This document shows, in pieces, positions 13,291-20,263 of a DNA stretch of 58,051 bases. The stretch comes from Bacteroidaceae bacterium (GTDB lineage: Bacteria > Bacteroidota > Bacteroidia > Bacteroidales > Bacteroidaceae). Made by a program: the position numbers and the translations under genes. The notes beneath the pieces are model-generated. The model saw only the letters and a list, made by a program, of their open reading frames with translations. It had not been told where the DNA came from and did no database searches. The stretch spans positions 1-58,051 of the forward strand of contig JAFZFF010000025.1 of the NCBI GenBank assembly GCA_017556045.1. Direction: 5' to 3'. Each line of letters starts with the position of its first letter. Position 1 is the first letter of the stretch.

Positions 13291-14664
13291 TTAATGAGCA
13301 TGTCCATGAGGTATAGCCGTAGTCACTGAAGCCAACTTCACTTGGTAAGCACCCTGAGTGACTACGCGTTCACCATGCTGAAGACCATGAAGAATCTCTA
13401 CACGCTCACCATTACGACGACCCAGCTGTACGGCACGCTTCATATACTCCTCGGCACACACCTGTACATATACATAGTAGAGTCCCTGCTCCTCAGTGAG
13501 CGCACTGACTGGCACCGACACCACACCCTCTTCGGGAGTAGTAAGCAGATATACCTCTGCGTACGTACCTGGAATGATGTCACCGACATTGTCAAACTCG
13601 AAAGTCACGGGAAGATAGTGTGATGCTCCCTCTACTGCTGCACGGCCATACGCTACAAGGCGACCATTCATCTCAGTTGTCTTATACAGACGATCGGTAT
13701 ACGAAGGACGGAAGTATGCAGCACTTACCTTAGTCAGCTGAGCATAGTACTGCTCTGACACCTCTGCGCGCAACTGCAGGCGACGGTCTTGTGAGACCAC
13801 GGCAATAGGCTGCCCCACCTCTACATAAGATCCATTGGCAACGAGTAGCTGCTTGATATATCCAGCTATTGGTGTGTTCACCGAAGCTCCCTTAGCGGTC
13901 ATACCCTGTGCCTGACCCTCATATGTGGTCTTGGCTGTCTCATAGCGCAAGCGAGTCTGTTCGAACTCCTTTGTAGAGATTATCTTATCGTCTACTAAGC
14001 GCTGCGCACGCTCATACTCAGCCAATGCGGTCTCATAAGCGACGCGAGCCTTCACCAGAGGATCACCATCCTGCAACTTCTTTGCAGACACGGCAGCCAA
14101 GGACTGATCTTTACCTACAGCCTGTCCCTCTACAATAGAGGGGTCAGTATAGTAGAGCACACCAGCCGACGCAGCCACCACAATGGCCTCACTACCCGCA
14201 GGAGCCTGTATGTGACCAGATGTCTTGATCACTCCGTAAAAAGGAAGTTCCTCGATAGTCTCCACCTGCAAGCCTGCAGCCTCAGCCTGAGCCTTGGTAA
14301 AGGCTATACCCTCACCATGAGCATGCTCACCATGTTCGTGATCATGAGCAGCGTGAGCGTCTTCTGAATGATTGTCTTCAGCGTGATTATGCTCTGTTTC
14401 GTGGGCGTGGTCGTGATTGCAACCCTCATGGTTATGTTCCGAGTGGCTATCGTGGTCATGCTCAGCGTGATTATGTTCCGATTGATCATGTTCAGCCTCA
14501 CTCTCATGGCTATGATCGTGGTCATGGCTGTGATCGTGATCGCACTGACTATGCGCAGCATGATCGTGATGTTCGTGACTGTGAGTATCACCTCCCCTAC
14601 CTCCACACGCAGCAAAAAGACAAGCAGCGCACAGGCAAGCAATTGTCGCTATAGGTCTATTCAT
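13291..14664 (-). CDS. RND periplasmic adaptor lipoprotein with histidine-rich N terminus (CzcB-like)
   Basis: A 457-residue membrane-fusion protein. The start at 14664 (MNRPIATIACLCAACLFAAC) gives a lipoprotein signal with lipobox LFAAC; an ATG nine codons upstream lacks that fit. After the lipobox come about 90 residues rich in His, Asp and Glu with 32 histidines and two cysteines, then the barrel-sandwich, helical hairpin (LVKARVAYETALAEYERAQ region) and beta-barrel domains of the adaptor family. The His-rich segment probably binds zinc or a similar ion in the periplasm and hands it to the pump. It is the first gene of the three-gene efflux operon, order adaptor-pump-channel. Confidence 0.9.
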   Translation of the reverse strand: MNRPIATIACLCAACLFAACGGRGGDTHSHEHHDHAAHSQCDHDHSHDHDHSHESEAEHDQSEHNHAEHDHDSHSEHNHEGCNHDHAHETEHNHAEDNHSEDAHAAHDHEHGEHAHGEGIAFTKAQAEAAGLQVETIEELPFYGVIKTSGHIQAPAGSEAIVVAASAGVLYYTDPSIVEGQAVGKDQSLAAVSAKKLQDGDPLVKARVAYETALAEYERAQRLVDDKIISTKEFEQTRLRYETAKTTYEGQAQGMTAKGASVNTPIAGYIKQLLVANGSYVEVGQPIAVVSQDRRLQLRAEVSEQYYAQLTKVSAAYFRPSYTDRLYKTTEMNGRLVAYGRAAVEGASHYLPVTFEFDNVGDIIPGTYAEVYLLTTPEEGVVSVPVSALTEEQGLYYVYVQVCAEEYMKRAVQLGRRNGERVEILHGLQHGERVVTQGAYQVKLASVTTAIPHGHAH

Positions 14665-14769
14665 ATCTGATTGTATAATATATATTTGCAAATTAGAGTG
14701 CGAAGATACTCAAAAATCCACAAACCACCATGCAACTGAATTGCAAAGATGAGTTAAGGATATAAAACA

Positions 14770-17676: not shown

Positions 17677-19044
17677 TCATCCATTAAGACTATCTTTCAG
17701 TTCCTTAATATTCGAAGCGATTGTCTCATCGCTGATACTATTATTGATAAGGTTACCAGCCAAATATTGGTCATATGCTGCCATATCGATAAGTCCATGA
17801 CCAGACAGACAGAAGAGAATTGTTTTCTGTTCACCCGTCTCAATACACTTCTTCGCCTCACGTATAGTAGCGGCAATAGCATGACATGACTCGGGCGCAG
17901 GGATGATACCCTCTGAAGCCGCAAAGAGCGTACCAGCCTCAAACGACTCAATCTGCTCGATATCAACAGCCTCCATCAAACCATCCTTGAGCAACTGCGA
18001 AGCCACCAATCCTGCTCCATGATAACGCAAGCCACCAGCGTGGATGTTGGCCGGACGGAAATTGTGTCCCAAGGTAAACATCGGGATCAGGGGAGTATAT
18101 CCCGACTCGTCACCATAGTCATAGCAAAACTCACCGCGAGTGAGCTTAGGACACGAAGCAGGCTCAGCCGCTACGAAGCGTGTAGTCTTACCATCCTTAA
18201 TATTATGACGCATGAAGGGGAAAGCCAAACCACCAAAATTTGATCCACCGCCGAAGCATGCTACCACCACATCGGGATATTCACCAGCCAACTCCATCTG
18301 CTTCTCGGCCTCAAGACCGATAACTGTCTGGTGCAATGTCACATGACTGAGCACTGAGCCAAGCGTGTATTTACAGTTAGGAGTCATCATCGCCAATTCT
18401 ACAGCCTCAGAAATAGCCGTTCCCAATGAGCCTTGGTGGTTGGGATAGAGAGTAAGAATATCCTTTCCCGCACGTGTAGACATCGAAGGAGAGGGAGTTA
18501 CCTGAGCACCAAAGGTCTGCATGATGCTACGGCGATAGGGCTTCTGCTCATACGACACCTTCACCTGATATACAGCGGCCTCAAGACCAAATACTTTAGC
18601 CGCATATGACAGAGCAGCTCCCCACTGACCGGCACCCGTCTCTGTAGTAACATTGGTGATGCCCTCCTGCTTACAATAGTAGGCCTGAGGTAGAGCCGAG
18701 TTAAGCTTATGCGAGCCGATAGGACTCACACTCTCATTCTTAAAATATATGTGAGCCGGAGTACCAAGTGCCTCCTCCAAACCATAGGCACGCACTAACG
18801 GAGTGCAGCGGTAGTTGGCATACATCTCTCTCACTGGTTCGGGAATGTCAATCCAGCTATCAGTCATATTTAGCTCCTGCTCCGAAGCCTCACACGAAAA
18901 GAGCATATACAAGTCTTCGGGCGTCACTGGCTCCTTGGTCTTAGGATTGAGCATAGGCACGGGCTTATTAGGCATATCGGCCTGGATATTGTACCATTGT
19001 GTAGGTATCTCACTCTCTGGGAGCATGTACTTCTTTTGTCTCAT
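17677..19044 (-). CDS. trpB: Tryptophan synthase beta chain, TrpB2 type (stand-alone)
   Basis: A 455-residue PLP enzyme joining indole and serine to tryptophan. The Schiff-base lysine is K113 in GSHKLNSA, the catalytic glutamate lies in TETGAGQWG (134-142) and the phosphate loop is GGGSN (265-269). The extra N-terminal 70-80 residues and overall length mark the TrpB2 subfamily, which usually occurs without TrpA. No other trp gene is nearby, so it may salvage free indole. Its 5' leader carries a Trp-codon leader peptide and terminator, meaning expression is probably controlled by tryptophan-tRNA charging. Confidence 0.93.
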   Translation of the reverse strand: MRQKKYMLPESEIPTQWYNIQADMPNKPVPMLNPKTKEPVTPEDLYMLFSCEASEQELNMTDSWIDIPEPVREMYANYRCTPLVRAYGLEEALGTPAHIYFKNESVSPIGSHKLNSALPQAYYCKQEGITNVTTETGAGQWGAALSYAAKVFGLEAAVYQVKVSYEQKPYRRSIMQTFGAQVTPSPSMSTRAGKDILTLYPNHQGSLGTAISEAVELAMMTPNCKYTLGSVLSHVTLHQTVIGLEAEKQMELAGEYPDVVVACFGGGSNFGGLAFPFMRHNIKDGKTTRFVAAEPASCPKLTRGEFCYDYGDESGYTPLIPMFTLGHNFRPANIHAGGLRYHGAGLVASQLLKDGLMEAVDIEQIESFEAGTLFAASEGIIPAPESCHAIAATIREAKKCIETGEQKTILFCLSGHGLIDMAAYDQYLAGNLINNSISDETIASNIKELKDSLNG

Positions 19045-19055
19045 ACCATTAAATT

Positions 19056-19090
19056 AAAAATCCGATGTCACAAACAAGGAGCATCGGATT
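19056..19090 (-). terminator. Attenuator terminator hairpin in the trpB leader
   Basis: On the minus strand AATCCGATG (19090-19082) pairs perfectly with CATCGGATT (19067-19059) over a 14-base loop and is followed by TTTTTAATTT. It ends only about a dozen bases before the trpB ATG. A terminator placed immediately upstream of a gene, inside its own leader, is the mark of attenuation. Confidence 0.8.
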
Positions 19091-19164
19091 AGCTATTACC
19101 ATTATTAAATTATTCCATTCTTACTGATATATGCAACTACCGCGCTCAAGCTAAACTACCGAGC
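19079..19164 (-). promoter_or_regulatory. Predicted trp attenuator: competing pairs 1:2, 2:3 and 3:4
   Basis: Segment 1 is GCTC (19164-19161), overlapping the third Trp codon and the next codon. Segment 2 is GAGCGCGG (19147-19140), beginning in the leader stop codon. Segment 3 is CCGATGCTC (19087-19079), the 5' arm and loop of the terminator. GAGC of segment 2 can pair with GCTC of segment 1 or of segment 3 (plus CGG with CCG), and 2:3 would break the terminator. A ribosome stalled on the Trp codons would free segment 2; one reaching the stop would cover it. The antiterminator is short (7 bp), so this part is a model. Confidence 0.6.
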
Positions 19165-19193
19165 CACCACCAAAACTTACTAAAGGTTTCCAT
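19146..19193 (-). CDS. trpL: Trp leader peptide METFSKFWWWLGSLA
   Basis: A 15-codon frame in the trpB leader, ATG at 19193 and TGA ending at 19146, with three consecutive TGG codons at positions 8-10. It starts about 30 bases after the expected transcription start of a consensus promoter and ends 55 bases before the terminator hairpin. Three adjacent Trp codons in a random 15-codon frame are very unlikely, and the product needs no function: its translation senses charged tRNA-Trp. Confidence 0.82.
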   Translation of the reverse strand: METFSKFWWWLGSLA

Positions 19194-19227
19194 TACGTAC
19201 ATATATCTCACTTTTTTATTGTGCGAG

Positions 19228-19258
19228 CAAAGTTATAGCAATTTTATCTATTCGCAAA
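19228..19258 (-). promoter_or_regulatory. Predicted promoter of the trpL-trpB transcript
   Basis: TTTG (19258-19255), a 19-base spacer and TAACTTTG (19235-19228) match the Bacteroidota housekeeping promoter in both elements and spacing. Transcription would begin near 19222, giving a leader of about 178 bases. Confidence 0.75.
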
Positions 19259-19300
19259 CATTTTGTAAGAAAAGTTTACCCAACGATTACAATTTATTCC

Positions 19301-19308
19301 TATCTTTA
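19301..19308 (+). promoter_or_regulatory. Possible -7 element of the lysO-like gene
   Basis: TATCTTTA differs from TAnnTTTG only in the last base and lies 25 bases before the ATG at 19334. No good -33 element lies at the proper distance. No lysine riboswitch-like structure was seen. Confidence 0.35.
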
Positions 19309-19333
19309 CGCCATAAACACCATTTTCACACAT

Positions 19334-20263
19334 ATGCTAAAGATACTACTTATACTATGGGGAAGCGTAGGCATCGGCTACGTGCTGCGTCATTGGCCAC
19401 AAACATGGGTAGGCAAACTGCTCACCCTCTCCGTATGGCTCATGCTATTTGTAATAGGTATCGAGGTAGGCGGCAACGAGGTACTAATAAACTCACTCGC
19501 CCTACTTGGCGTAGAATCACTGCTGCTCACACTCATCACCACACTATGCTGTAGCCTCGGCGCCTTATGGCTATGGAGAATCACACAGCAACCCAGCAAT
19601 CCCCCCACCCCGAGTGCTAAGCCTACCACTCACCGTCGTTTCAGCCTACGCGGACTATGGAGAGCCTTCCACGAAAGCATTATCATCTTTGTCTGCTTCT
19701 CGGGAGGCTGTATCTTGGGTTATATGGGTATCGACCAATATCTGCCGCATGATGCCTCCTACTATACACTATGCCTGTTACTCGTATGTGTAGGGTTCAA
19801 CATTGGACAAAACGAAGAGCTACGCCATAGTCTCAAGCATATCAAGAAAGGATACATACTCCTGCCCATCATCACCATCATAGGCACCTGGCTCGGAGCA
19901 CTGCTCACCTCTCTCCTACTCACACACCGCAGCCCTACCGACTGGCTAGCCGTCAGCTCAGGTTTTGGTTACTACTCATTGTCGAGCATACTTATCACTG
20001 AGGTGCGAGGTATCGAGCTGGGCACTGTAGCTTTTATGTACAATGTGATGCGTGAGATGACAACACTACTCTTCGCACCATTGCTACTCAAATTGTTTGG
20101 TCCCCTGTCGCCCATCAGCATAGGCGGAGCCACCACTGCCGACACTACATTACCTACGATATCACGTATCTGTGGCACCCACCTCGTGCCCATAGCCATC
20201 TGCCACGGGCTGGTAGTCGACCTCAGTGTTCCTCTTCTGGTACCCTTCTTATGTGCGCTGTAG
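19334..20263 (+). CDS. lysO: LysO-type (DUF340) lysine exporter
   Basis: A 309-residue polytopic inner-membrane protein with about eight hydrophobic helices. It has the two-part layout of the LysO/YbjE family: an N-terminal half with FVIGIEVGGNEVL and a C-terminal half with LAVSSGFGYYSLSSILI and a late HLVPIAICHGLVVDLS segment. LysO exports L-lysine and protects against toxic analogues in E. coli; substrate here is by homology. A charged insert (residues about 85-105) links the halves. It is divergent from trpB with the promoters about 45 bases apart. Confidence 0.85.
   Translation: MLKILLILWGSVGIGYVLRHWPQTWVGKLLTLSVWLMLFVIGIEVGGNEVLINSLALLGVESLLLTLITTLCCSLGALWLWRITQQPSNPPTPSAKPTTHRRFSLRGLWRAFHESIIIFVCFSGGCILGYMGIDQYLPHDASYYTLCLLLVCVGFNIGQNEELRHSLKHIKKGYILLPIITIIGTWLGALLTSLLLTHRSPTDWLAVSSGFGYYSLSSILITEVRGIELGTVAFMYNVMREMTTLLFAPLLLKLFGPLSPISIGGATTADTTLPTISRICGTHLVPIAICHGLVVDLSVPLLVPFLCAL

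Follow-up and report, generated by a model that had tools for sequence, protein, structure and literature searches.

A putative ribosome-mediated tryptophan attenuator in front of a stand-alone trpB2 gene in Bacteroidales

Introduction

Ribosome-mediated attenuation of trp genes is a textbook principle, and the enteric trp leader (Rfam RF00513) follows a 1:2 / 2:3 / 3:4 logic of alternative stems. In the Bacteroidota, a Bacteroid-trp RNA (RF01692) appears in Table 1 of PMC2864571. For Corynebacterium diphtheriae, PMC1262725 gives predicted attenuators on two operons, trpB1EDGC and trpB2A. Regarding the enzyme itself, PMC11535334 reports that the TrpB2 of Bacteroides thetaiotaomicron (BT_RS23500) conferred a growth benefit on an Escherichia coli trpA deletion strain only when the wild type cross-fed it, and the authors suggest indole use as the basis of this benefit.

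The locus described here was singled out by a sequence-only reading that proposed a complete Trp attenuator upstream of a lone trpB2 and considered attenuation of such an isolated gene to be little described. The literature searched, where subscription journals are thinly covered and absence is thus unproven, yielded no account of a stand-alone trpB2 of Bacteroidota under such an attenuator. The class of mechanism is known, while its target, a stand-alone trpB2, and the leader family are apparently undescribed.

Like the enteric leader, our leader has tandem Trp codons and a predicted 1:2 / 2:3 / 3:4 logic; unlike it, the first bases of segment 2 belong to the stop codon of the leader peptide, the gene is a lone trpB2, and RF00513 has no match in the window. 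With Bacteroid-trp it shares a leader ORF with tandem Trp codons, as found in related genomes (e.g., NTYWWWRLLQL), but its segments 2 and 3 (TGAGC.CGG and CCG.TGCTC) are unlike those of Bacteroid-trp. The candidate attenuator of C. diphtheriae trpB2A is likewise a prediction on a second trpB-containing operon; there, according to PMC1262725, trpB2 is linked to trpA, whereas here it stands alone, in a genus without TrpA over cut-off.

Results and Discussion

The window, i.e., the whole stretch of 58,051 nucleotides that was analyzed, carries the following features.

17677-19044, minus strand: trpB2, encoding a stand-alone TrpB-like PLP enzyme of 455 aa (TIGR01415 and NF009057 above curated cut-offs)
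19258-19056, minus strand: whole leader region, promoter through terminator (sequence reading)
19255-19258, minus strand: promoter -33 box TTTG (sequence reading and same-genus leaders)
19228-19235, minus strand: promoter -7 box TAACTTTG, 19 nt beyond TTTG
19198-19207, minus strand: 5' arm of the candidate long 1:2 stem, GATATATGTA, immediately before the leader ATG (partner-swap test)
19146-19193, minus strand: leader ORF METFSKFWWWLGSLA, 15 codons, from ATG at 19193 to TGA at 19146
19164-19172, minus strand: TGG TGG TGG, three Trp codons, invariant in 14 of 14 aligned leaders
19140-19147, minus strand: segment 2, GAGCGCGG, beginning within the stop codon; TGAGC and the next CG invariant in 14 of 14
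19126-19135, minus strand: 3' arm of the candidate long 1:2 stem, TGCATATATC (partner-swap test)
19079-19087, minus strand: segment 3, CCGATGCTC, predicted partner of segment 2 (antiterminator) or of segment 4 (alignment, partner-swap test)
19059-19090, minus strand: intrinsic terminator hairpin (3:4) of 9 bp with a 14-nt loop and a T-rich tail after it

The identity of the gene is well supported, with 586.4 bits against TIGR01415 (curated cut-off, 518.85). It had been called stand-alone, and indeed no trp gene was found among the five neighboring ORFs scanned. It is flanked by convergent ispE on one side and, on the other, by a divergent gene for a LysO-type lysine exporter (PF03956, 19334-20263, plus strand). 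The closest named relatives are Bacteroidaceae assemblies from the gut of water buffalo and water deer, whose TrpB2 proteins are 90 to 92% identical. Elsewhere, the window encodes a CusB/HlyD-type membrane fusion protein with a long His/Asp/Glu-rich N-terminal stretch (13291-14691, minus strand).

All structural elements that had been read from the sequence were present. The TTTG-19-TAACTTTG promoter matches what we take to be the Bacteroidota consensus, and the 15-codon ORF with Trp-Trp-Trp lies downstream of it. The terminator arms AATCCGATG (19090-19082) and CATCGGATT (19067-19059) form nine of nine pairs followed by TTT, shortly before the trpB2 ATG at 19044; a simple terminator scan with a loop limit of 8 detected no terminator in the window leader, whose hairpin loop measures 14 nt. 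The leader thus combines tandem codons for the amino acid concerned with an intrinsic terminator between leader and gene. Both pairings proposed for the GAGC at 19147-19144 can form, one with the GCTC at 19164-19161 (last Trp codon plus Leu codon) and the other with the GCTC at 19082-19079 at the terminator. The latter is the longer, with GAGCGCGG and CCG-A-TGCTC forming eight pairs (one G-U) around one bulged A. An ATG-initiated ORF with WWW did not occur in any of 6000 shuffled upstream sequences (88 passed a looser criterion of two Trp in five residues); on the antisense strand, used as a control, WWW was found in 1 of 264 cases and the looser Trp criterion was satisfied in 18 of 264. Folding of the leader, which had been suggested as a check, gave no support, since shuffled sequences fold as well as the naked leader does (z, +0.75; the MFE score is not informative).

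The evidence for the putative attenuator is its conservation in relatives and not the window sequence alone. TrpB2 was found in 17 of 19 genomes of the genus, our own included (none in G002 and G018), and a Trp-rich leader lies upstream of all 17 loci, 15 of them of the window leader type. Among these 15, the promoter TTTG-19-TAnnTTTG occurs in 14 (the spacer of L025 has 20 bases), the terminator is present in all, and exactly five codons, for differing amino acids, always separate WWW from the stop. The stretch from stop to terminator varies between 47 and 61 bases. We aligned 14 of the 15 leaders (L022 was left out) and found the invariant columns to be mainly TGG TGG TGG, the stop codon plus GC.CG, TCCG.TGCTC, and C..CGGA.T. 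The conserved columns (Trp codons, stop with segment 2, and terminator arms) are the parts that the attenuator model needs. A model built from the 14 leaders gave one full-length match in each of 15 of the 19 genus genomes, always at trpB2, besides five partial matches, one of which (in G010) lay elsewhere. The sequence-only reading had named beforehand a lack of conservation of the Trp codons or hairpin in relatives as evidence against it; both proved to be conserved. Two members of the genus (G005 and G016; loci L056 and L059) carry a second type of TrpB2, about 52% identical, with a Trp leader of its own.

We then assessed the individual pairings. The terminator is paired in 92.9% of cells over 14 sequences, and its covariation score was 0.257, compared to 0.134 ± 0.023 for shuffled alignments (reached by 0 of 500) and 0.112 for the best slid version, with both-sided changes stemming largely from one clade (G003, G009, and G012). 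Two of five terminator measures stayed within the shuffles, namely, the number of pairs changed on both sides (114/500) and the further pair types (377/500). No covariation of the antiterminator was seen inside the genus, where six of its ten pairs never vary.

Partner-swap tests, in which segment 2 was paired with its own or with other lineages' terminator arm and loop among representatives with differing terminators, indicated that segment 2 prefers its own terminator (31 representatives; mean residual, -2.79 kcal/mol; permutation standard deviation, 0.46; 0/20,000 permutations). The fit is uneven, the own terminator ranking first in 6 of 31 and among the top three in 13 of 31, with that of the window in 16th place. 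A shuffle test of the segment 2 energies gave a weak signal (9 of 31 at 15/300 or better; median z, -0.93), and the window's own 2:3 pairing is unexceptional by energy, 133 of 300 shuffles being equally good. Alignment and partner-swap together indicate that the antiterminator shares bases with the terminator, the two being mutually exclusive. Within the genus, partner specificity also held for a long 1:2 stem between the start region of the leader and the bases just past the stop (residual, -4.02; standard deviation, 0.93; 0/20,000; 11 leaders). The same stem was unsupported when sought order-wide (1338/20,000 permutations). The proposed 1:2 / 2:3 / 3:4 logic is thus supported by conservation, while its 1:2 part needs amending: the pairing exceeds GAGC with GCTC and is a long stem within the genus.

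Based on these data, we propose, with a probability of roughly 0.88, that trpB2 is controlled by a ribosome-mediated transcription attenuator. With ample charged tRNA-Trp, the ribosome would reach the leader stop codon and cover segment 2 (GAGC.CGG); transcription would then end at the 3:4 terminator, ahead of trpB2. Under a shortage of charged tRNA-Trp, the ribosome would stall at the three Trp codons, leaving free segment 2, which lies a fixed five codons further on; it could then pair with segment 3 before arm 4 is made, and RNA polymerase would read through into trpB2. Without translation, segment 2 would be held by the long 1:2 stem, which connects the leader start with the bases following the stop, and termination would be favored. 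TrpB2 would then convert indole to Trp, the indole probably coming from other gut bacteria.

To model the ribosome states, we assumed that the ribosome covers 12 nt ahead of it. When the ribosome sat at the first or the third Trp codon of a transcript ending in the terminator loop, the early antiterminator reached a probability of 0.98 to 1.00 in 15 of 15 leaders. Placing the ribosome at the stop codon covers segment 2, and the early antiterminator could then not form in any of the 15. In the model, segment 2 is thus free while the ribosome stalls and masked once the ribosome has reached the stop, with identical spacing in all 15 leaders; in other lineages the spacing varies, with 4 to 18 codons after WWW. 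For the naked RNA, the early antiterminator probability ranged from 0.00 to 0.88. Folded alone, the window's 2:3 and 3:4 structures have energies of -15.8 and -12.7 kcal/mol. In the full transcript at equilibrium, the terminator was favored in every ribosome state (P, 0.81 to 1.00), so antitermination would have to be kinetic, the switch acting during transcription.

This preference at equilibrium, together with the unexceptional energy of the window's own 2:3 pairing, would also suit a hairpin that is merely a constitutive terminator, with the small ORF serving only to couple translation and no alternative structure being formed. We consider this improbable, as the segment 2 bases lie outside the terminator and are nevertheless invariant, segment 2 fits its own terminator across lineages, and within the genus the arms of the 1:2 stem match their own partners. 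Much the same low odds apply to a leader peptide that would sense free Trp by ribosome arrest, as TnaC does, rather than tRNA-Trp charging at the codons. The leader is indeed short and contains Trp, and the same genome encodes a protein of the tryptophanase subfamily. Within the genus, however, the Trp codons and their spacing stay fixed even though the neighboring residues differ, and across the order even the arrangement of Trp changes (WWW, WRWRW, and WWLW), a pattern that suits sensing of codon translation rate better than it suits a specific arrest peptide.

Regulation of trpB2 by a T-box, a riboswitch, or another RNA family known to Rfam would be the remaining alternative to an attenuator, and we give it almost no chance. 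Nothing was found in its favor: no family reached its gathering score in the window and none matched at an E value of ≤10 in 18950-19350, so a T-box or other Rfam RNA at the trpB2 leader was rejected. Bacteroid-trp, the class named in the sequence-only reading, occurs in relatives, where RF01692 matched 19 of 101 genomes at an E value of ≤0.001 (14 over cut-off), in all 19 cases on the same strand and 209 to 294 bases upstream of a TrpB1-type match, and never at trpB2. The window leader, in contrast, had no RF01692 match at an E value of ≤10, membership requiring 49 bits, and was therefore rejected as a member; its own genome had no match at ≤0.001. When 20 trpB2 loci were scanned against Rfam at an E value of ≤1, L056 matched RF01692 with 37.6 bits (cut-off, 49); scanned alone, this leader gave an E value of 0.0097, and that of L059 gave no RF01692 match. 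A distant trpB2 leader (L184, 328-427) showed a full-length match to RF00513 that, at 26.8 bits, fell short of the cut-off (41).

To place TrpB2 in the physiology of the genus, we searched for other Trp enzymes. No TrpA over cut-off was detected in any of the 19 genus genomes (two had sub-threshold matches), nor were IGPS and PRAI or a second TrpB, while TrpA, IGPS, and PRAI were recovered in 14 of 14 control genomes. Since the genus genomes are 62 to 93% complete, absence from a single one means little, but absence from 19 of 19 does count. The reading as pathway loss covers TrpA, IGPS, and PRAI. Because none of these three (TrpA over cut-off) was found in the genus, TrpB2 probably salvages indole rather than serving biosynthesis. 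Its relative in B. thetaiotaomicron and the lack of TrpA here suggest that it would make Trp from indole without TrpA. The genome itself encodes a protein of the tryptophanase/tyrosine phenol-lyase subfamily (L298:863-2353, contig C73) that passes the subfamily cut-off and neither of the equivalog cut-offs for tryptophanase and tyrosine phenol-lyase; with TrpB2 alongside it, both Trp-to-indole and indole-to-Trp conversion may occur.

Across the order, identified as Bacteroidales by the named relatives, a Trp-rich leader was found at 75 of 183 usable trpB2 loci (one locus per genome), distributed over 39 of the 101 genera and 28 of the 54 families. Leader loci were chosen by eye from ORF lists, with the GTG start of L245 counted and doubtful ORFs excluded (L037, L047, L057, L062, L110, L158, and L265). 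Five genomes whose trpB2 start lay outside the match (G147, G169, G205, G309, and G374), the 3'-only fragment G022, and L064, taken without upstream sequence, were dropped. By an in-house criterion, a terminator follows 76 of 79 leaders (the 75 of the order plus 4 from named loci). The peptides vary by lineage (e.g., KFWWWLG, NTNWWWL, and WRWRWQWH); WWW occurs in 49 of the 76 terminator-bearing leaders, and Trp makes up 241 of 1490 residues. Among the named loci, all 80 titled Bacteroides, Phocaeicola, or Paraprevotella lacked a leader by the Trp-rich criterion (L112 and L114 offering only 242 and 259 upstream bases). A rescan of 182 leaderless upstream regions (with a few duplicates and L064 included), irrespective of start codons, yielded a single Trp-rich stretch, located in a long open frame.

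Genomes without TrpA hold 47 of the 75 leader loci and 28 of the 108 leaderless ones (p, 8e-7); when our own genus is excluded, the comparison is 30 of 58 versus 28 of 108 (p, 0.001). Collapsed to genera and families, the association had p values of 0.011 and 0.098, respectively. Within our own family, with genera as units and ties scored as TrpA present, TrpA was missing from 4 of 4 genera with a leader and from 2 of 19 without one (p, 0.0017). Leaders on trpB2 thus track loss of the trp operon clearly in this family, while across the order the trend is only suggestive.

Overall, we lean toward a broader reading, in which we have modest confidence: the stand-alone trpB2 of Bacteroidales would form a Trp-starvation regulon of its own, with several leader types outside Rfam, placing indole salvage and not biosynthesis under tRNA-Trp control. 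In lineages without a trp operon, an attenuated trpB2 would be the only Trp-responsive source of Trp, and these bacteria would consume community indole in a regulated way. Classic trp attenuation logic would operate here, in Bacteroidales, on a lone gene that probably salvages indole. The ecological prediction is that gut Bacteroidales lacking the trp pathway switch on indole-to-Trp conversion when Trp is short, and the loci reported here can serve to build an RNA family absent from Rfam.
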